A stretch of 64,000 nucleotides of DNA from the NCBI RefSeq assembly GCF_019740355.2, contig NZ_CP091819.1, positions 3,472,001-3,536,000 on the forward strand. Reading direction: 5' to 3'. A model generated the notes under the pieces. The model saw nothing but the letters and a program-made list of their open reading frames with translations, made no database searches and was not told where the DNA came from. The translations under genes and the position numbers were made by a program. The number at the start of each line of letters is the position of its first letter. Position 1 is the first letter of the stretch. This DNA is from Paracrocinitomix mangrovi. GTDB lineage: Bacteria > Bacteroidota > Bacteroidia > Flavobacteriales_D > Crocinitomicaceae. Shown here piece after piece: positions 48,120 through 59,395 of the stretch.

Positions 48120-48715
48120 GGATGTTTTGTCCTTTTTTTCATTACCAAAAAAAGCTAGCATCTCGCTTCACACATTCTAATTTAAGCTCCTCAAAAGCTA
48201 AAGCCTAAATATTTTCTGACATACACCCATATCCTGGGGTCAGAAAATCGGATCGGCTTTTAACGCTTTCTGCGTCGTTAAATCGACTAAAGATGGTGTT
48301 TAAATGGATTGGAGTTAAAAAAAGAGATTCACGCGCACAAGAAAAATAAACAATGCGGCGCGCTAAATTCACGAATGATTAGAAGATGGATGCGGTTTTC
48401 AAATTTGCTAAATGTTGAAATTTATGTTAAGCGCAGAAGATGATCAATTTTCAATTTTCTATTTGTTGAAATTATCATTAACCTCCCCCTTAGTCCCCCT
48501 CCAAAGGGGGAAACAGATAAATTCTAAGATCGGCATCTGCTAATCCTATGTTATAAATTACCCCGCAAAAATCGTATTGAGGCGACCGTTGAGGCGTAGC
48601 CGAGACAATTGAGCCGAAAAGATTTAGAGGAGGATAATTTAGAGTAGGTTAGCAGCAGCCGCCACCAATGATTTTTTTTCGTTTTTTTTTCATCTAAGGG
48701 AAAAAAAGAACAAGT
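48120..48715. repeat. Composite palindromic repeat unit 1 (modules A1 + B1)
   Basis: The left poly-T/poly-A hairpin (48128-48153) is followed by module A (48154-48446), which has a perfect ATTTTCTGAC/GTCAGAAAAT stem and longer imperfect arms. A spacer with a CCCCCT-CCAA-AGGGGG hairpin (48495-48510) leads to module B (48531-48663, CTGCTAAT.../...TTAGCAG arms), and a right T/A hairpin follows (~48668-48710). Related units occur at 52.2, 55.9, 56.2, 57.8, 58.4 and 58.9 kb. It fills the 684-bp gap before the thioredoxin gene, and no coding sequence is seen. Confidence 0.85.
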
Positions 48716-48803
48716 ACCAAAGAGAATGATTTTTCAATTATGGGAAAAAAGGATAAATGCTGAAAAAAATATGATCTAAAAAAGTCAAAAAAACATCACC
48801 TCA

Positions 48804-49100
48804 TCACAAATACCCACCAATCACCTGTACCAAACTATGCAAAGGCACAACACCAGATTGTCTCCAAACCTGCTTGCCATCTTTATACAAAATCATAGTC
48901 GGAACACCTCTAACTCCTAATTGACCTGATAAAACCTGATGCTTATCTACATCAATCTTCACAATTTTTATCTGATCCTTCATCTTGTTTTTAAGATCCT
49001 TCAAAATAGGAGCCAACGCTTTGCATGGTCCACACCAGGTAGCATGAAAATCTACCAATACGATAGGATGACTTTTAACGATATCTTCAAACTTTGCCAT
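48804..49100 (-). CDS. trxA: Thioredoxin
   Basis: 98 aa from ATG 49100; an upstream in-frame TTG at 49109 would add only three residues. The active site is WCGPC (C23/C26) in VDFHATWCGPCKALAPIL. The conserved cis-proline GVPTMILYKDGK and Gly-rich C-terminus are present. No signal peptide, so cytoplasmic protein-disulphide reductase. A dedicated role is not indicated by its neighbours. Confidence 0.93.
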   Translation of the reverse strand: MAKFEDIVKSHPIVLVDFHATWCGPCKALAPILKDLKNKMKDQIKIVKIDVDKHQVLSGQLGVRGVPTMILYKDGKQVWRQSGVVPLHSLVQVIGGYL

Positions 49101-49336
49101 GTCAAACAAATTTACTGCAATCTTACTACAATTGAAAAATTCACCAGCTGCTTTGCATCAGTTTGACTTATGATAAAAATTACTCAATCCAGCCATTATC
49201 TGTAATTCATAAAAGAATGGGTTTAGAGCTATTATTGGCTTTATATCTATCTGATGGGAACTTAAATTTCTTTTATGAGTTCGTCATATTAAAACCTATT
49301 GAATCGTGATTGGAGTGTGAGTATAATTTCATTCCT

Positions 49337-49344
49337 TACCTTTG
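49337..49344 (+). promoter_or_regulatory. -7 box (TACCTTTG) of the 49362 gene
   Basis: A perfect TAnnTTTG ending 17 bp before ATG 49362. The -33 TTG is imperfect (GTG at 49315-49317 with 19-bp spacing). Its position supports ATG 49362 over the upstream TTG 49299 as the translation start. Confidence 0.5.
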
Positions 49345-49361
49345 TAGTGCTAACACTACTT

Positions 49362-51404
49362 ATGGATAGGTTCAGATTTTACGTTCTATTATTCACTTTT
49401 CTTTCTACAAATGTTTTTTCAAAATCAATTGAAGAACATTGGGCTATCTGGAAAAATGTAAATGAAGCAGACACCACGCGATTAAAGGCTCTTAAGCTTT
49501 ATACAACGAATAAATTTATTTATTCTGACCCAGATTCTGCAATTCATTATTTTGAGGAGATGCATGATTTTGCTTTGTCCAAAGAACTTAAGGATTATCA
49601 ATCTGATGCATTGAGATACATTGGTGCTACTTATCATCTGCGTGGGAATTATGTAATGTCAAATGATTATTACCATCAAAGTTTAGCTATTAGAAAAGAA
49701 ATAAAGGATACAAATAGAATAGCTTCTTCATACAATGATATTGCTGGAGTTTACCAAAATCAAGGAGATGATGATCTTGCTTTGGAATTTTATAATAAAA
49801 GCATGGAGCTTTTTGAAATCACAGGTGATAAATCTGGATTGTCAAGGTGTTTTCACAATATTGGTAGTGTATTAAGTGATAACAATGAATGGGATACTGC
49901 AGCTTATTATTTTAACCAAAGTTTATTGTTAGACAGAGAATTGGGTGAAAAGATTCCGGAAGCCTACGCACTCATTAATTTGAGCAAAATCTACCTTGAA
50001 GTAGGTGAGCTCGATTCGGCATTAGCCTTTTCTTATCAAGCAATTGCAATTCTTGAAACTAGAGTGGACAAAGAAGGTTTATCAGCTTCTTACAATGGAC
50101 TTGCCGAAATATATTTCAAACAGAAAAAGTATGATGATGCTCTGGAGTTCGCCCAAAAAGCTTATCAAATTTCATCTGAAGGTTTGTCCATTTTGCAAAC
50201 GAATCAGTCAGCTAATAACTTGTATCGCATCTACAAGAAAAAAAATGATTTCAAATCAGCTTTAGAGATGCTTGAATTACAAATGGAATTGACCGATAGT
50301 ATTAAAAATGAAGAAGCCAAACAAAAAACGTTGCAGCAAAAATATGAATTTGACTATGGACAAAAATCATTGGCAGATAGTTTGAAATTTGTGGAGGAAC
50401 AACGTATTTCTGACTTTAAACACGAGCAGGAAAGTAAACAGCAAAAATTAATTATTATTTCGGCTATAATAGGACTGATACTTGTTATTCTTTTCTCTTT
50501 TATCATATACAAAAGGCTTCAATTAACAAGAAAACAGAAGCATATAATAGAAGATCAAAAAGTAAAAGTAGAAGAGGCTCATCAAGAAATTCAAGATTCA
50601 ATTAACTACGCTAAACGTATTCAGTCAGCGATATTACCACCACCTAAAATGGTGAAGCAATATTTGGAAAAATCATTTGTCATTTACAAACCAAAAGATA
50701 TTGTAGCCGGAGATTTTTACTGGTTAGAAACCAAAGGTGATAATATTCTATTCGCTGCAGCAGATTGCACCGGTCATGGAGTTCCCGGAGCTATGGTATC
50801 AGTGGTATGTAATAATGGATTAAATAGATCTGTTAGAGAACACGGAATTACTGATCCGGGTAAAATTTTAGATAAAACCCGCGAAATTGTCATTCAAGAA
50901 TTTGAAAAGTCTGAAGAAGAAGTAAAAGACGGAATGGACATTGCGCTTGTTTCGCTTACACTCAATAAAAAGAATGAAATAGAGAATGAGAATGACAGTG
51001 GGGATGAAGAAAACACTCATACTCATTCTGCTTCCCATTCTGTTCTAAAGTATGCGGGTGCTCACAATCCACTTTGGATCATCAGAAAAGGAGCAGAGGA
51101 AGTAGAGGAAGTCAAGGCGGACAAACAGCCAATTGGAAAGTTTGACAATCCACAATCTTTTACGACTCATGAAATAACACTAAGTTCCGGGGATACTTTC
51201 TATATATTCTCAGACGGTTTTGCAGATCAATTTGGTGGAGACAAAGGTAAGAAATTCAAGGCTGCCAATATGAAAAAACTGCTTTTATCAATGCAAAATG
51301 AAAGTATGGAACGTCAAAAAGAATTGATAGATGAAGCCTTTGAAAATTGGCGTGGAAATCTGGAGCAGTTAGATGATGTTTGCGTAATAGGTGTGAGAAT
51401 ATAA
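49362..51404 (+). CDS. TPR-SpoIIE membrane phosphatase
   Basis: 680 aa from ATG 49362, giving a clean signal peptide (MDRFRFYVLLFTFLSTNVFS). The frame extends to a TTG at 49299, but a -7 box lies between them. TPR-like repeats span ~40-335 (DDLALEFYNKSMELFEITGD, KKYDDALEFAQKAYQI). A membrane helix at ~361-383, a coiled coil at ~385-420 and a SpoIIE/PP2C domain at ~430-680 follow, with KPKDIVAGDFYW (~443) and ADCTGHGVPGAMVS (~466). A short His/Ser insert (~552-562) matches the longer one in the 15608 paralog. It ends LEQLDDVCVIGVRI and is followed by the 80-bp trailer. Probably a duplicate of the 15608 gene, now ~32 kb away. Confidence 0.9.
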   Translation: MDRFRFYVLLFTFLSTNVFSKSIEEHWAIWKNVNEADTTRLKALKLYTTNKFIYSDPDSAIHYFEEMHDFALSKELKDYQSDALRYIGATYHLRGNYVMSNDYYHQSLAIRKEIKDTNRIASSYNDIAGVYQNQGDDDLALEFYNKSMELFEITGDKSGLSRCFHNIGSVLSDNNEWDTAAYYFNQSLLLDRELGEKIPEAYALINLSKIYLEVGELDSALAFSYQAIAILETRVDKEGLSASYNGLAEIYFKQKKYDDALEFAQKAYQISSEGLSILQTNQSANNLYRIYKKKNDFKSALEMLELQMELTDSIKNEEAKQKTLQQKYEFDYGQKSLADSLKFVEEQRISDFKHEQESKQQKLIIISAIIGLILVILFSFIIYKRLQLTRKQKHIIEDQKVKVEEAHQEIQDSINYAKRIQSAILPPPKMVKQYLEKSFVIYKPKDIVAGDFYWLETKGDNILFAAADCTGHGVPGAMVSVVCNNGLNRSVREHGITDPGKILDKTREIVIQEFEKSEEEVKDGMDIALVSLTLNKKNEIENENDSGDEENTHTHSASHSVLKYAGAHNPLWIIRKGAEEVEEVKADKQPIGKFDNPQSFTTHEITLSSGDTFYIFSDGFADQFGGDKGKKFKAANMKKLLLSMQNESMERQKELIDEAFENWRGNLEQLDDVCVIGVRI

Positions 51405-51484
51405 TTCGAACATCTATTTAAGCAGTTTATCCTGACCGCGTGTCGCTATAGCTTTAGCGGTGGCACAGCAAGTCGAAGGATATT
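51405..51484 (+). ncRNA. 80-bp structured trailer, copy 3
   Basis: Starts at the base after the stop. The outer arm is TATCCTGAC against GTCGAAGGATA, a T-A pair where copy 1 has C-G, so the change is compensated. The inner loop is GC-TATA-GC instead of GC-AAAA-GC. Confidence 0.62.
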
Positions 51485-51526
51485 TTAAAGAATATTGAAT
51501 CGTTATTGGAGTAAGGGTGTAAGCCA

Positions 51527-52000
51527 TTAAGGACAATCCATACAAGAGGAAGTATTGTAATAAGTAATCACAACATTCTTTGTGTCTTGCTTTAGTTTAT
51601 AAGGCATTGTCAGATTTATATCCCAGCCTTGATAATAACTCATATGATTTGATTGAGTAGATACAGCAGTAGGCATTGATTGCCCCGGTTTAATATTGTT
51701 CTCCTCAGCTGGAGTTACAAATCCGTAAGTACCCGCCGGTAATTTTGTACTGAATTCGCCATTCATTTTGGAACTAACAACAGCTACCACTTTTGGAACC
51801 GAATCATTATGGGTGATTTCTACAATCAAAATAGTGGCTGAATATGGTCTCGGCTCAAACATATAATCTGGCATTCTTGCTCCTCCACTGCTATACTCAA
51901 CAATTCCTATCTGTCCGGAGAATTCATATAAAGCTGTGTCTTTTTGTCCAAACAATGTACTTGTTAGTGACAACACCAGTATGATGAGTAAGTTTTTCAT
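51527..52000 (-). CDS. Secreted protein with transthyretin/carboxypeptidase-regulatory-like fold
   Basis: 157 aa. A signal peptide (KNLLIILVLSLTSTLFGQ) is followed by one beta-sandwich-like domain containing VAVVSSKMNGEFSTKLPAGT, the 'G.F...LPAGTY' pattern of carboxypeptidase-regulatory-like domains. It ends in a Cys pair (SSCMDCP). No sorting domain, so periplasmic or lipid-independent export is expected. It is monocistronic and convergent with the SpoIIE gene. Function unknown. Confidence 0.72.
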   Translation of the reverse strand: MKNLLIILVLSLTSTLFGQKDTALYEFSGQIGIVEYSSGGARMPDYMFEPRPYSATILIVEITHNDSVPKVVAVVSSKMNGEFSTKLPAGTYGFVTPAEENNIKPGQSMPTAVSTQSNHMSYYQGWDINLTMPYKLKQDTKNVVITYYNTSSCMDCP

Positions 52001-52059
52001 GAGTTTGTTTTCTTAATATACAGTTGTTAGATGGATTGGTTCAAATGGGATTATTCTTT

Positions 52060-52440
52060 TTTCCATTGAGCAAAAAATATACTTCCCCCTTGTGTGGGGA
52101 AATGTGAGAAGGTAAGGAGGGGGAAAAGAATGCACTGCTTTCGCAGAACAAGCGTTAGCGCAAGGGGGGAGGTTTTATCCAGATTATCATTAACCTCCCC
52201 CTCAGTCCCCCTCCAAAGGGGGAAGCAGATAAATTCCAAGTTCGGCATCTGCTAAGATTGCGTCATTTTGCAACCAGAGAATGCGTAAAGAAGCCGATCC
52301 GGATACCGCTGCAAGCGGGATCATTAAGGCTTTAGCATTCGAGGATTTGGAAAATAGCAAATTAGCAGCAGCAGCCGTTCAAGTGTTCTGATAGCTATCG
52401 GGATTTTTGTTTTTTTTTTCACTATGGGAAAAAAAGGACA
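52060..52440. repeat. G/C-run hairpins and composite repeat unit 2 (module C1)
   Basis: 52082-52170 holds CTTCCCCCTTG...CAAGGGGGGAGG arms, forming a large imperfect hairpin. 52196-52222 repeats the CCCCCT-CCAA-AGGGGG spacer hairpin seen at 48495. Module C occupies 52243-52377 (CTGCTAAG.../...TTAGCAG arms with an inner CCGCT-GCA-AGCGG tip), followed by the right T/A hairpin (~52405-52435). Module A is missing. This fills most of the 527-bp gap before the HutD-like gene. Confidence 0.78.
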
Positions 52441-52527
52441 AGTATTATAGAAAGTGATTTTTCATCAAACGGAAAAAAGAACATATATAAAAAAGCAATC
52501 ACACATTAAATCCCTACATTCACAATA

Positions 52528-53085
52528 ATGAACATCATTCGATCAAATAAAACTACCAACTGGGGTGGAGGAACAACGACAGAGCTGTATATATGGCCGG
52601 AGAATGCCACTTATAAAAACAGAGACTTTGACTTTCGCCTATCAACTGCTACTGTTGAAGTAGAAAATGCTGAATTTACTCCCTTACCTCGAGTAAAAAG
52701 AACTTTAATGGTTTTGGATGGGCAATTAGGGTTGCAACATGAAGGGCAGCACAGCAAATTTTTAAATGCCTTTGATCAAGAACAATTTGACGGTGGTTGG
52801 AAAACCAATTCAATTGGTACCTGTATTGATTTTAACCTCATGTGTATAGGAGATGTCAGAGGTACATTGACGCATTTTCATCTAAAAGAGGGTGAAAAGA
52901 GAATTATTGAGTTTAACGAAACAAGACATCTGATCTACCTTTTTAAAGGGGCTATTAAGTATCAGAATCAAACAGTAGAAGAAGGAAGTTTGATGTTATT
53001 TGATCAGGAGAATAATGTAGATTTTCAGGCCCTGAATGATTGTCAATTAGTTTTGATTCAAATCTCAGGAACTTTTCAGCAATAA
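52528..53085 (+). CDS. hutD: HutD/Ves family protein
   Basis: 185 aa, cytoplasmic. It has the family hallmark N-terminus NKTTNWGGGTTTELYIWPEN, DFDFRLSTATVE and the cupin-like FTPLPRVKRTLMVLDG, then FDGGWKT and FNLMCIGDVRG. HutD-family members are small double-cupin-like proteins linked to histidine utilisation in other bacteria, but no hut genes are present here, so a hut role is not supported by context. Monocistronic between a repeat unit and the convergent cold-shock gene. Length matches the family. Confidence 0.8.
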   Translation: MNIIRSNKTTNWGGGTTTELYIWPENATYKNRDFDFRLSTATVEVENAEFTPLPRVKRTLMVLDGQLGLQHEGQHSKFLNAFDQEQFDGGWKTNSIGTCIDFNLMCIGDVRGTLTHFHLKEGEKRIIEFNETRHLIYLFKGAIKYQNQTVEEGSLMLFDQENNVDFQALNDCQLVLIQISGTFQQ

Positions 53086-53118
53086 AAAAAGCCGCTTCAA
53101 ATTAATGAAACGACTTTA
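53086..53118 (-). terminator. Intrinsic terminator of the cold-shock gene
   Basis: On the minus strand: AAAGTCGTTTCA-loop-TGAAGCGGCTTT (G-T pairs allowed), continuing into a seven-T run. About 80 bp beyond the cold-shock stop, directly abutting the convergent hutD-like stop. Confidence 0.8.
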
Positions 53119-53197
53119 AAGGTAAAGTAAAAACTTATAGTTAGATGGTCACCTGGACCATTTGATTCTTGTTTTGAAAATACCTGGCATTTAATGC

Positions 53198-53389
53198 TTA
53201 TGCAACTTTTACGTTGATAGCGTTAAGACCTTTTTTACCCTGTCCTTCTTCATAAGTTACTTTGTCACCTTCGTTGATTTCATCAATCAAACCTGAGTTG
53301 TGTACAAAAATATCCTCAGAAGAATCTGATGGAGTAATAAAACCAAAACCTTTTTGGTAATTGAAGAATTTAACTGTTCCTTCTTTCAT
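53198..53389 (-). CDS. cspA: Cold-shock domain protein (CspA family)
   Basis: 63 aa starting MKEGTVKFFNYQKGFGFITP. RNP1 (KGFGFI) and RNP2 (DIFVH) nucleic-acid-binding motifs are intact, and the C-terminus GQGKKGLNAINVKV is typical. The frame continues 25 codons upstream to 53464, but that extension is non-homologous and contains a palindrome, so the internal ATG is chosen. It acts as an RNA chaperone in the cytoplasm. The untranslated leader may be regulatory, as in other csp genes. Confidence 0.93.
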   Translation of the reverse strand: MKEGTVKFFNYQKGFGFITPSDSSEDIFVHNSGLIDEINEGDKVTYEEGQGKKGLNAINVKVA

Positions 53390-53432
53390 GATAATAAAAA
53401 AATAATTAATGCTACACCTTTTCTTGTGTGCT

Positions 53433-53446
53433 AAAAGGGCCCTTTT
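53433..53446. promoter_or_regulatory. 14-bp perfect palindrome in the cold-shock leader
   Basis: AAAAGGGCCCTTTT, about 45 bp upstream of the cold-shock start. It could be an operator or part of a leader structure. The rest of the 53465-53791 gap is AT-rich and holds nothing else I can identify except an imperfect TGATTG/CAATCA dyad at 53761-53777 before the next gene. Confidence 0.4.
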
Positions 53447-53791
53447 TAAACTTGGTTTAAGCATGACCTAAAAGCAAGTACTTCTTTATGTACTTGTTAG
53501 ATGTTGATTCAGAAAATGTTGGTGAAGTTTAAAAGAATGAGCGAATCGCTCGGCCTAAAAAAAATTCTCTAACAAAACGAGAACGTAATAATCTGATACA
53601 AAGATATACTAATTAATTGGATAAACCTAAAAATGATTTTTTTGCCTTTTTATTTGTCTATGCCCAGTATTGAGGGCACTTGATAAAATAGTTCAAGATG
53701 GATTTGTTTAAACTATTGCATTATTGCTATTTCTTATCGTATCTTTCTTTTAACAATAATTGATTGTCAATCAATCATTAACCTAAAAAGA

Positions 53792-54151
53792 ATGAAACAC
53801 ACATTACTAATTTTATTACTATGTATCTCCACTTTCTCAATGGCACAAGAAACTACTACAAGCCGAAAAGTGGTTGGAAAAACTGAATTAGTTACTTCAA
53901 ATGATCATTTAAAAGAGCTGGCAGCAGACGTGAATGTCAAATATGAAGCATATCAAAAATCAATAACCGGAAGCAGAAGTGCTGATGGTGAAGTTGTGAA
54001 GGATGAATATCTAAAATCGCTTGACACCTATATTACTGCGCTGGAGACTGAAGTTTCTAAATCTAATGATCAAGATGCCGCTATTTTGAAGGAAGAACAT
54101 GCGCAAGCAGTAGCCTTAAGAAATAGAGTTCGCATGACAGGTTCAAAATAA
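53792..54151 (+). CDS. Small secreted helical protein
   Basis: 119 aa with a signal peptide (KHTLLILLLCISTFSMAQ). The mature ~100 residues are helical and charged (YLKSLDTYITALETEVSKSN, QDAAILKEEHAQAVALRNRV), with no cysteine or sorting domain. Family not recognised. A TGATTG/CAATCA dyad lies just upstream (53761-53777). The T9SS gene starts 30 bp after its stop, so the two may be co-transcribed. Confidence 0.7.
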   Translation: MKHTLLILLLCISTFSMAQETTTSRKVVGKTELVTSNDHLKELAADVNVKYEAYQKSITGSRSADGEVVKDEYLKSLDTYITALETEVSKSNDQDAAILKEEHAQAVALRNRVRMTGSK

Positions 54152-54181
54152 GTATTCAATAATTACTTAAATCCCAAGAAA

Positions 54182-55801
54182 ATGAATTTAAAATTATACT
54201 CAACTTATAAGTTATTTTTTATGGTTTGTGCGATTGTATTATCCAATAGGATCAATGCTCAAATCACTGAAAATTTTGATGACATTACTACGCTTACCGG
54301 ATCTGGATGGATCATGCAAAACAATAGTTCGCCTTTAGGATCAACAGATTGGTTCCAAGGTAATGCTACAGCATTTGCAGCATTCAATGGGGCCGGAGAT
54401 TCTTACATTGGTGCCAATTTTAACAACACTTCAGGTGTGGGTACTATCAGTAACTGGTTGTTAACGCCTAATGTTACTTTAAAAAACGGTGATGTAATCA
54501 CTTTTTATACCCGCACAACCATTGATAATATGTGGGCAGATAATCTACAAGTGCGCATGAGTACCAATGGAGCAAGTACCAACGTTGGAGCCACAGCAAC
54601 ATCTGTTGGAGATTTTTCAACTGTGTTGCTAGAAATCAACCCAACTTTGGCTTTGAGCACTTATCCAATGGCCTGGACCCAGTACTCTATCACAATTAGT
54701 GGTTTAACAGCTCCTACTTCAGGTAGATTGGCTTTTAGGTATTTTGTTACCAATGCAGGACCTTCTGGATCTAACTCAGATTACATTGGGATAGATGCGT
54801 TTGTTTATACACCTTATGTTTGTCCTACTTTAACTGTAACACCTGGCACGCTGAATAACGGAACAGCCGGAACAACTTATGGAGAAGTATTGGGCCAAAC
54901 AGGAGCTTTAGGTACGGCATCTTTTGCTGTAGTTTCAGGAACATTACCTCCAGGTGTAACGCTTGGAACAAATGGTACTTTTTCTGGTTCGCCAACTGCT
55001 ACCGGAACCTATACTTTTACAGTTGAAGTAACTGACCAAAGTGGATGTACAGGAACACAAACCTATTCTTTAACAATAGACTGTCCTACCAACGGAGCGA
55101 CTTTAGCCGCATTCCCGGATATGTGTGAAGGTGATTCACCATTAGTGTTAACACAAGGTTCACCATCCGGTGGAACGTATAGCGGAACGGGTGTTACCGG
55201 AAGCCAATTTGATCCATCAGCAGGAACATCAGCCATCTCTTATTCATTAACGGATGTTTATGGTTGTGTTCAAACTGCAGTGGGCACAATTACAGTAAAT
55301 CCACTTCCAACTGTTACGCTAGATCCATTTTCAACCTATTGTGAAGGTGCTGCAGCTTTTGCATTGTCAGGAGGTAATCCTACCGGCGGAACTTATAGTG
55401 GAACTGGAGTTTCTGGAGGGATGTTTAACCCTGCCACTGCCGGAACTTTTACAGTGACTTATACTTATATGGATGGTAATGGATGCACCAATACTGCCAA
55501 CGCAGATGTAGTGGTAGCAGATTGCCTTGGATTGCCGGAAACAAATGGATTAAAGAATTTCAGTTGTTATCCAAACCCAACCAATGGAGAATTATTTGTG
55601 CAGTTCAATGAATCAACGGCTGTAGATGTATCAATAAGAGTTGTTGGTGCAAATGGGCAAGTTGTTTCAATTGAAGAAATAAAAGATGTTAAGGGACAAT
55701 TTCAACATGTTTTGGACCTTTCTTCTTTTGATAAAGGAATTTATGTAATTGAAGTAACTACACCTTCAGGTACAGGAATTCAAAGAATCGTATTGCAGTA
55801 A
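54182..55801 (+). CDS. T9SS-secreted adhesin-like protein with choice-of-anchor J domain
   Basis: 539 aa. A signal peptide (LFFMVCAIVLSNRINAQ) is followed by a jelly-roll cleaved-adhesin/choice-of-anchor J domain (~25-215, ENFDDITTLTGSGWIMQNNS, SNWLLTPNVTLKNGDVITFY), a putative Ig-like domain (~220-300, GTASFAVVSGTLPPGVTLGT), two short Ig-like repeats with SGGTYSGTGV (~300-450), and a T9SS type A sorting domain from SCYPNPTNGELFVQFNE to the end. Probably a surface carbohydrate- or protein-binding protein. An intrinsic terminator follows. Confidence 0.88.
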   Translation: MNLKLYSTYKLFFMVCAIVLSNRINAQITENFDDITTLTGSGWIMQNNSSPLGSTDWFQGNATAFAAFNGAGDSYIGANFNNTSGVGTISNWLLTPNVTLKNGDVITFYTRTTIDNMWADNLQVRMSTNGASTNVGATATSVGDFSTVLLEINPTLALSTYPMAWTQYSITISGLTAPTSGRLAFRYFVTNAGPSGSNSDYIGIDAFVYTPYVCPTLTVTPGTLNNGTAGTTYGEVLGQTGALGTASFAVVSGTLPPGVTLGTNGTFSGSPTATGTYTFTVEVTDQSGCTGTQTYSLTIDCPTNGATLAAFPDMCEGDSPLVLTQGSPSGGTYSGTGVTGSQFDPSAGTSAISYSLTDVYGCVQTAVGTITVNPLPTVTLDPFSTYCEGAAAFALSGGNPTGGTYSGTGVSGGMFNPATAGTFTVTYTYMDGNGCTNTANADVVVADCLGLPETNGLKNFSCYPNPTNGELFVQFNESTAVDVSIRVVGANGQVVSIEEIKDVKGQFQHVLDLSSFDKGIYVIEVTTPSGTGIQRIVLQ

Positions 55802-55820
55802 TTTAAAATTCAAACTTTTT

Positions 55821-55853
55821 AAAAAGGGACCTGGAATTTTCGGGTCCTTTTTT
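55821..55853 (+). terminator. Intrinsic terminator
   Basis: AAAAAGGGACC-loop-GGGTCCTTTTTT, a 10-11 bp stem running into a T-run, 20 bp after the T9SS gene stop. Confidence 0.88.
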
Positions 55854-55904
55854 GTTTTTTGAAGATAGCTTTATCAATATGATCAGTAAGAGACATTCTA
55901 AGTT

Positions 55905-56070
55905 CGGCATCTCCTAATCCTGCGTCATAAATTACCCCGCAAAAATCGTATTGAGGCGACCCGTTGAGGCGCAGCCGAAACAATTGAGCCGAAAAGATTT
56001 TGAGGAGGATAATTTACAGTAGGTTAGGAGCAGCCGTTCAGAATGAATTTTTTGGTTCTTTTTTCTTCTT
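55905..56070. repeat. Composite repeat unit 3 (module B2 only)
   Basis: Module B (55905-56036) with TAAATTACCCCGC...GAGGATAATTTA arms and the right T/A hairpin. It is immediately followed by unit 4, and no module A precedes it. Together with unit 4 it accounts for the 958-bp gap between two T9SS genes. Confidence 0.82.
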
Positions 56071-56165
56071 TAGGAAAAAAGAACATATACAAAAAAGTAA
56101 TTTTTTCATCAAATAGAAAAAGTGAAAGAGCTTAAAAGGATAAAACTCCTTTAAAGAGACTGTAA

Positions 56166-56610
56166 TGTTCTTTTTTTCATTACCAAAAAAAGAACCAAAA
56201 AAGGCTAGCATCCCGCTTCACACATTCTAATTTAAGCTCCTCAAAAGCTAAAGCCTAAATATTTTCTGACATACACCCATATCCTGGGGTCAGAAAATCG
56301 AATCGGCTTTTGACGCTTTCTGCGTCGTTAAATTCACGAATGATTAGAAGATGGATGCGGTTTTCAAATTTGCTAAATGTTGAAATTTATATTAAGCGCA
56401 GAAGATGACCAATACGAGACATTCCAAGATCGGCATCTGCTAAGATTGCGTCATTTTGCAACCGGAGAATGCGTAAAGAAGCCGATCCGGATACCGCTGC
56501 AGGCGGGATCATTTAGGCTTTAGCATTCGAGGATTTGGAAAATAGCAAATTAGCAGCAGCCGCCACAAATGATTTTTTTGATCCTTTTTTCATCTATGGG
56601 AAAAAAGGAT
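56166..56610. repeat. Composite repeat unit 4 (modules A2 + C2)
   Basis: Left T/A hairpin, module A (56204-56412, lacking the ~75-bp internal segment present in A1 and A3), linker AAGCGCAGAAGATGACCAA, module C (56431-56562) and right T/A hairpin (CATCTATGGGAAAAAAGG). Confidence 0.85.
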
Positions 56611-56759
56611 AAGTACCAAAGAGAATGATTTTCATCAAATGGAAAAAAGTCAAAGAGCTATAACGAATATACGATAAGCAATAAATACAATCCCAATCAC
56701 ATCACTCTGCATCTTTTATTCAATTGATTCCGTCTGTTTAATAACTCAATTTTAAACTT

Positions 56760-57830
56760 ATGAAAATCAAAGTCATTATCGCAACACTCACTTGTTTGCT
56801 ATTTACAAGCATCTCAAAAGCTCAATGTTCTGGTTTTTCAATGACCATTTCAACTAATAACCCTACTTGTTATGGGTTTTCTGATGGATCTTTGACAGTG
56901 AATACCACCGGAGGAACAGGAAATATTAATTATACCATTACAGATTCTGTTGGGAATGTTTTGAATTTAGGAAATGCAAATACTTCAAATAATCTTCTTG
57001 AAGGATGGTATTATGTTTTGGTCACAGATCAAGTTCCGTGTACACTTTATGATTCTGTTTATCTGGATGCTCCGGATGAAATGATGATTGACCTGGTGAT
57101 TGACGAAGCGTTATGTTATGGAGATACTTCTGCTTGGGTGTATGTTGATACTATTTACAATTGGACAGGAGCCTACAACCAAATCATGTATTTCTGGAAT
57201 CCAATTCCTGTTGGAAATACAAATGGAGTAGGAACAGATTCGATATTCAATGTGCCAAGCGGTAATTATTTACTTGGTGTAGTAGATGAAAATGGATGCA
57301 GTATTAGTGAGAATTTTATTGTCCCGGATGCCCCTTCACAAGTGGTTATTGATTCTTTGGTTTACCAAAACTGTGTCAGTGGTGGTGACGGAAGCGCAAG
57401 TCTTTATGCTTCAGGTGGAACAGCTCCTTATACTTATTTGTGGTACAATAATGCCACTGGAGATTCATTAAATACCCAAAGCGTTTCAGGGCTTGATGCA
57501 GGCGTATATTATTATGAAGTGTATGATGCCAATGGATGTATCTTATCACAAGTAGGAGATTCTTTGACGCTAGGATGTGTAGGTATGGTAGATTTGGACG
57601 TAGAGTTTAAAATGTATCCAAATCCAACCACAGGATTGTTGACTGTTGATTTAGGAAATCAATTGATTGATGCACTAATGGTGTATGACCTCCTCGGAAA
57701 TGCTGTTCTTGAATTACATCATGTGTCTGGAATTATTTTCGTTGATCTTTCAGAAGTAAGTGCAGGAACATATTTGGTGTATTTGACGCATCAAGATGCT
57801 GTGAAGGTTAAAAAGGTAGTGGTGGAATAA
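56760..57830 (+). CDS. T9SS-secreted protein with SprB-like repeats
   Basis: 356 aa. A signal peptide (IKVIIATLTCLLFTSISKAQ) is followed by about three repeats of the SprB/gliding-adhesin type: NPTCYGFSDGSLTVNTTGGT, then EALCYGDTSAWVYVD, then YQNCVSGGDGSASLYASGGT with APYTYLW. The C-terminal ~75 residues (KMYPNPTTGLLTVDLGN to VKKVVVE) are a T9SS type A sorting domain. Likely a small surface adhesin. It is flanked on both sides by composite palindromic repeats. Confidence 0.87.
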   Translation: MKIKVIIATLTCLLFTSISKAQCSGFSMTISTNNPTCYGFSDGSLTVNTTGGTGNINYTITDSVGNVLNLGNANTSNNLLEGWYYVLVTDQVPCTLYDSVYLDAPDEMMIDLVIDEALCYGDTSAWVYVDTIYNWTGAYNQIMYFWNPIPVGNTNGVGTDSIFNVPSGNYLLGVVDENGCSISENFIVPDAPSQVVIDSLVYQNCVSGGDGSASLYASGGTAPYTYLWYNNATGDSLNTQSVSGLDAGVYYYEVYDANGCILSQVGDSLTLGCVGMVDLDVEFKMYPNPTTGLLTVDLGNQLIDALMVYDLLGNAVLELHHVSGIIFVDLSEVSAGTYLVYLTHQDAVKVKKVVVE

Positions 57831-57835
57831 GGATG

Positions 57836-58392
57836 TTTTTATTCTTTTTTCCCATTGCGCAAAATAGGCAAGCAGCACTGCTGCGGCGTAAAAAAAGGCT
57901 AGCATCCCGCTTCACACATTCTAATTTAAGCTCCTCAAAAGCTAAAGCCTAAATATTTTCTGACATACACCCATATCCTGGGGTCAGAAAATCGAATCGG
58001 CTTTTGACGCTTTCTGCGTCGTTAAATCGACTAAAGATGGTGTTTAAATGGATTAGAACTAAAAAAGGAGATTCACACGCACAAGAAAAATAAACAATGC
58101 GGCGCGCTAAATTCACGAATGATTAGAAGATGGATGCGGTTTTCAAATTTGCTAAATGTTGAAATTTATATAAAGCGCAGAAGATGTCCAATACGAGATA
58201 TTCCAAGATCGGCATCTGCTAATCCTGCGACATAAATTACCCCGCAAAAATCGTATTGAGGCGACCGTTGAGGCGTAGCCGAGACAATTGAGCCGAAAAG
58301 ATTTTGAGGAGGATAATTTAGAGTAGGTTAGCAGCAGCCGCCACCAATGATTTTTTTGGTCCTTTTTTCATCTATGGGAAAAAAGGATAAGT
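57836..58392. repeat. Composite repeat unit 5 (modules A3 + B3)
   Basis: Starts 6 bp after the T9SS gene stop. The left TTCTTTTTTCCCATTGCGCA hairpin carries a GCAGCA-CTGCTGC insertion. Module A is full length (57898-58191) and module B is 58210-58340, with the right hairpin CATCTATGGGAAAAAAGGAT. This is the most complete unit. Confidence 0.86.
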
Positions 58393-58431
58393 GCTTAAAG
58401 AGAGTAAATAGGATGTTTTAATTATTAATTG

Positions 58432-58865
58432 TTTTGTCCTTTTTGTCTTGACACAAAAAGAACGAAAAAAGTCAAGGTCCGCTCCTGCTTTTCTAAAATT
58501 TTACTCCTCGCAGCCTAAATAGCTCAATTGTCTCCACTACGTTCCGACGGTCGCTATTCTTAACGGCTACTTGCGGGTAAATTTTAACGAAAGCGCAGAA
58601 GATGACCAAATTTCAATTTTCTTTATGTTGAAACTTAATTCAAACGCAAAAGATGATCAGTAAGAGACATTCTAAGTTCGGCATCTGCTAAGATTGCGTC
58701 ATTTTGCAACCGGAGAATGCGTAAAGAAGCCGATCCGGATACCGCTGTAAGCGGGATCATTTAGGCTTTAGCATTCGAGGATTTGGAAAATAGCAAATTA
58801 GCAGCAGCCGTTCAAGGTGATTTTTTTTCGTTCTTTTTTTCATCTATGGGAAAAAAAGGACAATT
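58432..58865. repeat. Composite repeat unit 6 (modules D + C3)
   Basis: The left part is a different module, D (58471-58607, preceded by a TCTTGACACAAAAAGAACGA hairpin arm), whose centre matches the reverse complement of module B (AGCTCAATTGTCTC, GACGGTCGC). Module C (58679-58810) and the right T/A hairpin follow. Confidence 0.82.
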
Positions 58866-58937
58866 ATTATAGAAGGTGTTTTTTCATCAAATGAAAAAAA
58901 GTGAAAGAGCTAAAAAGGATAATAATTTCTTTACAAA

Positions 58938-59395
58938 GGTTGTTTTATTCTTTTTTCCCATTGCGCAAAAAAGAACCAAAAAAGGCTAGTATCCCGCTTC
59001 ACACATTCTAATTTAAGCTCCTCAAAAGCTAAAGCCTAAATATTGTCTGACATACACCCATATCCTGGGGTCAGAAAATCGGATCGGCTTTTAACGCTTT
59101 CTGCGTCGTTAAATTCACGAATGATTAGAAGATGGATGCGATTTTCAAATTTACTATATGTTGAAATTTATTTTAAGCGCAGAAGATGACCAATAAGAGA
59201 ATTTCTAAGATCGGCATCTGCTAATCCTGCGAAATAAATTACCCCGCAAAAATCGTATTGAGGCGACCGTTGAGGCGTAGCCGAGACATTTGAGCCGAAA
59301 AGATTTAGAGGAGGATAATTTAGAGTAGGTTAGGAGCAGCCGCCACCAATGATTTTTTTTCGTTCTTTTTTTCATCTATGGGAAAAAAAGGACAA
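58938..59395. repeat. Composite repeat unit 7 (modules A4 + B4)
   Basis: Left TTCTTTTTTCCCATTGCGCA hairpin, short module A (58985-59193, internal segment absent as in A2), module B (59212-59342) and right CATCTATGGGAAAAAAAGGA hairpin. Units 5-7 lie in tandem and fill the 1.7-kb gap before the SDR gene. Confidence 0.85.

Follow-up and report, generated by a model that had tools for sequence, protein, structure and literature searches.

The window analysed here is a stretch of 64,000 nucleotides from Paracrocinitomix mangrovi (G000:C1:3472001-3536000), whose genome is a single contig of 4,365,762 bases. Between 48.1 and 59.5 kb of the window the intergenic gaps are filled by long repeats, in which the covariance models R1 and R2 each match 12 homologous palindromic modules over a span of about 11 kb. 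These modules are arranged as five complete inverted pairs and two incomplete units (Table 1). All seven places at which a preliminary description of this DNA had counted units were recovered, but by both models only five of them are complete. Copies of modules A, B and C in the window match one another with BLASTN E-values of about 1e-56 to 1e-120. Module A occurs in a long and a short form (241 vs 156 bp), as had been described, and in the sequence the 85 extra bases of the long form have TAAAT on either side. A listing of inverted repeats bears out the mutual inversion of the terminal hairpins, and no open reading frame of at least 100 aa covers the units, which agrees with the earlier statement that they hold no conserved frame. 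Two whole units folded with z-scores of −4.0 and −6.1, with none of 100 shuffles as good in either case; in one of the two, both modules pair with each other.

Table 1. Repeat units in the window and a terminator-like site beside them (window positions).
Feature	Span	Strand	Parts	Model matches
Composite 1	48123..48725	+	Left hairpin; module A, long form (48154-48394); linker from ~48429 (AGCGCAGAAGATG at about 48430); CCTCCCCC-type insert (about 48478-48512); module B, minus strand (48526-48666); right hairpin	BLASTN, R1, R2; R1 48156-48312 +, 48528-48665 - (pair starts 48156/48528); R2 48130-48294 +, 48533-48709 -
Incomplete unit	52043..52440	+	Partial left hairpin (about 52051-52077); other palindromic repeats in the position of module A; module C, minus strand (52237-52376); right hairpin	R1 52240-52378 - (partnerless C at 52240); R2 52245-52438 -
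Terminator-like site of upstream gene	55820..55854		Followed by the half unit	
Half unit	55876..56085	-	Module B, minus strand (55900-56036); right hairpin	R1 55902-56040 - (partnerless B at 55902); R2 55907-56083 -
Composite 2	56164..56612	+	Left hairpin (from 56167); module A, short form (56204-56359); linker from ~56394 (AGCGCAGAAGATG at about 56395); module C, minus strand (56425-56566); right hairpin	R2 56167-56354 +, 56433-56609 -; R1 (pair starts 56206/56428); R3
Composite 3	57837..58390	+	Left hairpin with GC-rich insert; module A, long form (57898-58138); linker from ~58173 (AGCGCAGAAGATG at about 58174); module B, minus strand (58205-58345); right hairpin	R2 57842-58038 +, 58212-58387 -; R1 (pair starts 57900/58207)
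Composite 4	58433..58862	+	Hairpin, loop CTTGAC (58447-58452) complementary to GTCAAG (58471-58476); module D (58472-58610); linker from ~58591 (AGCGCAGAAGATG at about 58592); module C, minus strand (58673-58810); right hairpin	R2 58435-58605 +, 58681-58859 -; R1 (pair starts 58472/58676); R3
Composite 5	58945..59391	+	Left hairpin; module A, short form (58985-59140); linker from ~59175 (AGCGCAGAAGATG at about 59176); module B, minus strand (59207-59347); right hairpin	R2 58948-59135 +, 59214-59391 -; R1 (pair starts 58987/59209); R3

Other sequences are interspersed with the units. A second repeat, CCTCCCCCTYAGTCCCCCTCC...GGGGGAA, lies inside units or replaces parts of them, both in the window (48478-48512 and 52080-52235) and in locus L019 (12680-12820 and 14600-14690). 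At 12824-12952 of L019, a C-type module has kept its outer arms while its core is swapped for another palindrome (CTCGACTACGCTCGAG and GATCGAGCGGAGTCGAGA), and R1 still matches it (E 1.9e-5). The window also contains a TPR plus SpoIIE phosphatase gene at 49299-51404, with dozens of similar stretches per genome in four relatives.

The preliminary description had presented A to D as exchangeable modules, of which B and C would have common outer arms but different cores. B and C can, however, be aligned end to end and thus share more than their arms, and A and D align with both. When A, B, C and D were aligned jointly with modules from the congeners G001, G002 and G003, the mean column identity was 63%. 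The parts are exchangeable as claimed, but the possibility that they are unrelated is rejected: all four represent the same element in variant forms. The element consists of an A/T-rich hairpin with a palindrome of ~130-150 nt after it and is used either alone or as an inverted pair. The linker AGCGCAGAAGATG, present once in each complete unit, is not the separate part it had been taken for, since it matches module D at its 3' end and the other modules in their conserved 3' arm. G001 carries a single D-like module that stands alone. Because the modules are homologous, the linker corresponds to the 3' end of D and a D-like module is found by itself, a composite is a module in plus orientation followed by a module in minus orientation.

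We examined how far the structure of the modules is conserved when their sequences change. Among the A-type copies of the genus (n = 10), 20 of 34 predicted pairs show changes on both sides. In alignment A6, 84.9% of cells pair and 15 of 21 pairs show two-sided changes; its covariation score was reached by none of 500 shuffles and its number of further pair types by 20 of 500. Sliding the pairing partners in A6 lowers these measures, except for the cells with two-sided changes, which tie at −1. Across 20 loci whose 5' arms are 35% identical, apex-anchored pairing of each module's own arms gave −10.9 kcal/mol vs −5.1 kcal/mol for swapped arms (0 of 5000 permutations), a test that keeps L143 and L191, in both of which the apex is anchored too early. 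In the stem-mismatch counts (see below), the excess of pyrimidine-pyrimidine mismatches falls mostly 15-28 nt from the apex, and from this position we attribute it to a conserved internal loop. The fold of the module is a single long arm interrupted by conserved internal loops, a structure that persists while the arm sequences change.

In many members the loop of the hairpin is complementary to, and co-varies with, a site just downstream. A CTTGA loop is present in 65 of the 72 distinct hairpins that have an NTCAAG site, the remaining seven comprising two with CTTGG loops and five without CTTG. The last base of the loop CTTGAN is the Watson-Crick partner of the first base of the site in 65 of 65 cases (34.7 by chance), in three combinations (45, 14 and 6), although these counts overstate the number of independent events because most loci were fetched with models that contain the hairpin and because related sequences are not independent. 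By eye, simple loop complementarity is absent from hairpins with a TCTAG site.

We searched the host genome and its relatives with covariance models, as the preliminary description had proposed. In the host genome, where 150 of 1683 candidates were scored, R1 finds at least 21 modules, grouped into three clusters except for one isolated copy: 12 in the window, three some 17-19 kb beyond it (one of them weak, E 1.9e-5), five near 2.067 Mb and one at 2.508 Mb. With E <= 1e-3 as the cut-off, R2 has matches, many of them weak, in 73 of the 399 genomes searched from the order. The loci inspected from this search retain the plan of A/T hairpin, GTCTAG or GTCAAG site and palindrome while their sequences differ, and most of them have the palindrome apex AACTC ... 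TCAAACAG. A pattern scan of GTDB contigs returned 31 stretches, which among the named records come mostly from Crocinitomicaceae and other Flavobacteriales MAGs and include a Fluviicola MAG and Aestuariivivens marinum; the exact B-core pattern had no match over genome contigs.

Model R3 comprises 17 modules, none from G000-G003 and four from named records of unchecked genus. At E <= 1e-5 its matches lie in 40 of 395 Bacteroidota genomes, which represent 28 of 171 genera. R3 recovers seven places in the host genome (best E 2.4e-9), including composites 2, 4 and 5 of the window; on 48 other loci (218,883 bases), used as a control, it gave two weak matches (E 6e-4 and 2e-3). Copy numbers are lower bounds, because the R2 and R3 scans scored only 6 and 8 candidates per genome, respectively, and covariance-model E-values are rough. 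Some carriers are GC-rich, at 61-69% GC. The element is thus a real, phylum-wide, structure-conserved repeat. The preliminary description had regarded copies limited to this locus, with no structure-preserving substitutions, as the mark of simple local duplication; confinement to the window is rejected by the R1 matches in the genome and the R3 matches across Bacteroidota, and the arms carry compensatory changes.

Besides the window, genus g35 and a further family of the class (L271) have inverted pairs. The 16 composites of g35 stand in tandem, separated by a 48-bp spacer, and most measure about 451 or 319-328 bp. R3 matches are clustered and often co-oriented; in G682, for example, six of seven lie within 31 kb on one strand. 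If the element were old and immobile, its clusters might have arisen by local duplication and unequal recombination, through tandem growth and deletion alone. The clustering, the common orientation, the tandem composites with their 48-bp spacer and the persistence of one site over 14% flanking-gene divergence would all fit such a history, but we consider it improbable because the JAJRQQ and JAHEMJ records carry copies at unrelated sites on many contigs per genome. Moreover, 12 copies in the JAJRQQ MAG have a mean identity of 96%, which therefore reflects recent copying or homogenisation; the corresponding mean in Ww7 is 85% (26 pairs).

Comparisons of orthologous sites bear on persistence of the element. 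At one site in g35, six of the eight loci whose flanking gene is at least 86% identical carry the element and two lack it; the contig of one locus, L207, ends inside the element. Since the two element-free loci resemble the query more than three carriers do, loss is more probable here than gain. Between each pair of three species, hairpin and first module differ at this site by 0 substitutions in 178 positions, with gene divergences of 5.4-6.2% on the left and 7.8-9.0% on the right. The intergenic flanks diverge by 0.9-5.1% and the rest of the composite by 2.0-4.6%; compared with the flanks only, hairpin and first module stand out little. At a second orthologous site, the hairpin and module diverge by 5.1-8.5% vs 12.7-17.7% for the gene; the near flank differs by 34-59% and the sequence after the module by 13-17%. 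The low divergence of hairpin and module at these two sites, both in one genus, could be due to constraint or homogenisation.

The outer flanks read, 13 on the left and 10 on the right, show no target-site duplication, though the true ends are uncertain, and a clean empty site was obtained neither at the mfd site in G001-G003 nor at the g35 site. No element lies downstream of mfd (Pfam; L021 7349-10771) in G001, G002 or G003, and the gene that follows in the host genome was not seen in their mfd stretches. In L021 (7349-12573), mfd is followed by a unit and then by a MATCAP-domain gene with units on both sides. G001 shares synteny with the host to the left and right of the unit region of the window, but inside that region synteny is absent; R2 finds no match in the G001 stretch L132.

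To describe the placement of the element relative to genes, we used 57 of the 81 R3 matches in forty other stretches (all with E <= 1.2e-6). Five overlap predicted ORFs and the rest lie in 47 distinct gaps, of which 33 are co-directional, 9 convergent and 5 divergent, as compared with 472, 81 and 77 neighbouring ORF pairs of these stretches (p = 0.40). In co-directional gaps the module runs against the genes 17 times and with them 16 times. An earlier set of 23 placements comprised 7 divergent, 6 convergent and 10 co-directional cases, three of the divergent ones being a single orthologous site. Because the gap counts show no orientation bias, a role as terminator or as leader does not account for where the elements lie. 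A fixed polarity to genes is rejected by the 47-gap test, and replication-strand-biased insertion by the comparison of module strand with local GC skew (20 agree and 20 disagree in 42 stretches, two near zero being left out).

The option of bidirectional transcription terminators, raised in the preliminary description, or of 3'-end stabilisers is accordingly very unlikely. Several units do start no more than about 15 bases from a stop codon (48119 and 57830; L019 12634 and 14014), and T runs follow the palindromes, but terminator-like sites with a GC stem directly before a U tract are not above chance in the region (11 vs 7.7 ± 2.8 in shuffles) and gaps with elements are not enriched for convergent genes.

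Constraint at the RNA level is expected to leave more G-U than A-C mismatches on the transcribed strand. In 54 modules less than 75% identical, stem mismatches comprise 62 G-T vs 71 A-C beside 2002 Watson-Crick pairs, under an alignment scoring that treats all mismatches alike; with no G-U excess on either strand, there is no wobble signature. This pattern favours selection at the DNA level but is compatible with RNA. The modules might nevertheless belong to a new structured RNA family, in which the module would be transcribed, the loop-site pairing would be a pseudoknot and the internal loops (AACTC / TCAAACAG) would bind a protein or ligand. Conserved loops, drifting compensated stems and pseudoknot-like pairing are typical of such RNAs, and possible constraint at orthologous sites also speaks for this explanation. 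We regard it as rather unlikely given the mismatch counts, the lack of gene-orientation bias, the absence of Rfam matches on the window (at gathering scores) and at modules in the carrier loci tested, and the absence, by eye, of a conserved promoter-like stretch outside the hairpin in the alignments.

We looked for an enzyme that might mobilise the element. The host genome has three matches to Y1 (RAYT-like) transposases, at G000:C1:138085-138309 and 1581554-1583094 (L050-L052), two of which are about 1.3 kb apart and near-identical, with one frame broken. All three loci are flanked by other, short GC-rich palindromes, and among 302 other loci one has a weak relative, 9 kb from an element; RAYT mobilisation in the host genome is thus not supported. 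By eye, GC-rich REP-like hairpins like those at the Y1 loci lie inside the A/T hairpins of some units, and because of this location REP-like repeats seem to have entered the element. Among 85 flanking proteins from 45 of the 57 R3 matches (proteins over 900 aa left out), no common partner was found with Pfam (the 25 commonest of 140 families) or padloc, and these 25 families include no recurrent mobility family and no integrase. Plasmid and phage collections gave no match in distant BLASTN searches with two plasmid queries and one phage query, nor did viral contigs in two pattern scans. The view that this is a structured non-coding family without an entry holds for the libraries checked (Rfam, plasmid, phage and viral).

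The units share with classical MITEs, i.e. deletion forms of DDE transposons with terminal inverted repeats, their inverted outer hairpins, their length of a few hundred bp, their lack of coding sequence and their multiple copies. Such an origin is nonetheless scarcely credible: outer hairpins are inverted in composites, whereas single modules exist that have one hairpin, target duplications are absent from the flanks read and no transposon with such ends was found among the loci searched.

The reading that we prefer, with a probability of roughly 45%, is that the window's units are local copies from a family of large palindromic elements, intergenic and non-coding, that extends across Bacteroidota, is recognised as folded DNA, is copied by an enzyme and is subject to selection at some sites. 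Folded DNA, either single-stranded or cruciform, would be the recognised form, as with REP/REPIN sequences and IS200/IS605-type ends. An endonuclease or transposase, together with local recombination, would copy the element into nearby intergenic sites, where copies would often land as tandem composites, and at some sites selection on the hairpin and first module may then keep them. In the window, such copying would have given 12 modules within about 11 kb. We read the element as a DNA-level, structure-recognised and presumably mobile repeat with a REPIN-like build, though far larger. We are more tentative about a broader proposal, namely an unnamed phylum-wide structured nucleic-acid element under selection, spread in intergenic clusters, whose loop-site pairing, compensated stems and constant internal loops would form a platform to which a conserved Bacteroidota protein, either an ssDNA-processing enzyme or an RNA partner, might bind.

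That a large structured repeat spans genomes of about 30% to 68% GC, diverges less than the adjacent gene at the two sites compared and yet lacks an entry in the libraries used would indicate that a DNA- or RNA-processing system has gone unrecognised in a major bacterial phylum. The family also accounts for one kind of long palindromic mosaic between Bacteroidota genes. No published description of it was recognised in the open-access literature searched, and a text search for exact motifs listed nothing relevant.

Several known systems resemble the element in part. The ends of IS200/IS605 elements and their non-autonomous derivatives, such as PATEs, have subterminal hairpins, are recognised as folded single strands and use short guide-site pairing. 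Subterminal hairpins and guide-site-like pairing are shared by the element, but no such ends or transposase were identified here and there is no strand bias. Integron attC sites keep their structure while their arm sequences vary, and they form arrays between genes. The likeness to the element lies in this conservation of structure over sequence and in the intergenic arrays; unlike attC sites, the modules have no fixed gene orientation, and no integrase is among the 25 commonest flanking-protein families. BrickBuilt MITEs contain minisatellites. As described in PMC5771137, BrickBuilt MITEs of Porphyromonas gingivalis are likewise multi-copy intergenic repeats of Bacteroidota.

REP, REPIN and BIME sequences (PMC3733652 and PMC6006769) are likewise intergenic non-coding palindromes, often in inverted twos, that form clusters and mosaics. 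The inverted-pair unit of REPINs is found here in the five window pairs and the 16 g35 composites. However, a REP palindrome is about 20-40 bp long, whereas the modules are 130-190 nt and match 138 to 179 model positions. The REP foot GTAG, GTGG or CGTC has no counterpart here as a conserved tetranucleotide (alignments A5 and A6, by eye), and the cognate RAYT (TnpA-REP) flanked by the same repeat was not found beside the copies tested. The loop-site pairing and conserved internal loops also set the element apart from REP/REPIN sequences. It works most like a very large REPIN, yet it falls outside REP sequences in length, foot and cognate gene. According to PMC6006769, the palindromes adjoining Bacteroidetes TnpA-Y1 of subclass 2.6 are atypical and have copies elsewhere in the genome. 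They share with the element the phylum and, by description, atypical secondary structures, and the family may be among them; the Y1 loci of the host, in contrast, are flanked by palindromes other than the element.

Individual carrier loci have features of their own. L274 (13800-20000; G479:C19) has at least seven modules around a sugar epimerase/aminotransferase (polysaccharide-type) locus, in two sets within one genome that have common ends and apex but different arms. A Bacteroidales small SRP RNA (Rfam RF04183) lies close to an element at 1766-1871 of L151. In L185 (JAHEMJ010000013.1), on the minus strand from 6267, a module is broken halfway, with unrelated sequence at the break beside a gene.
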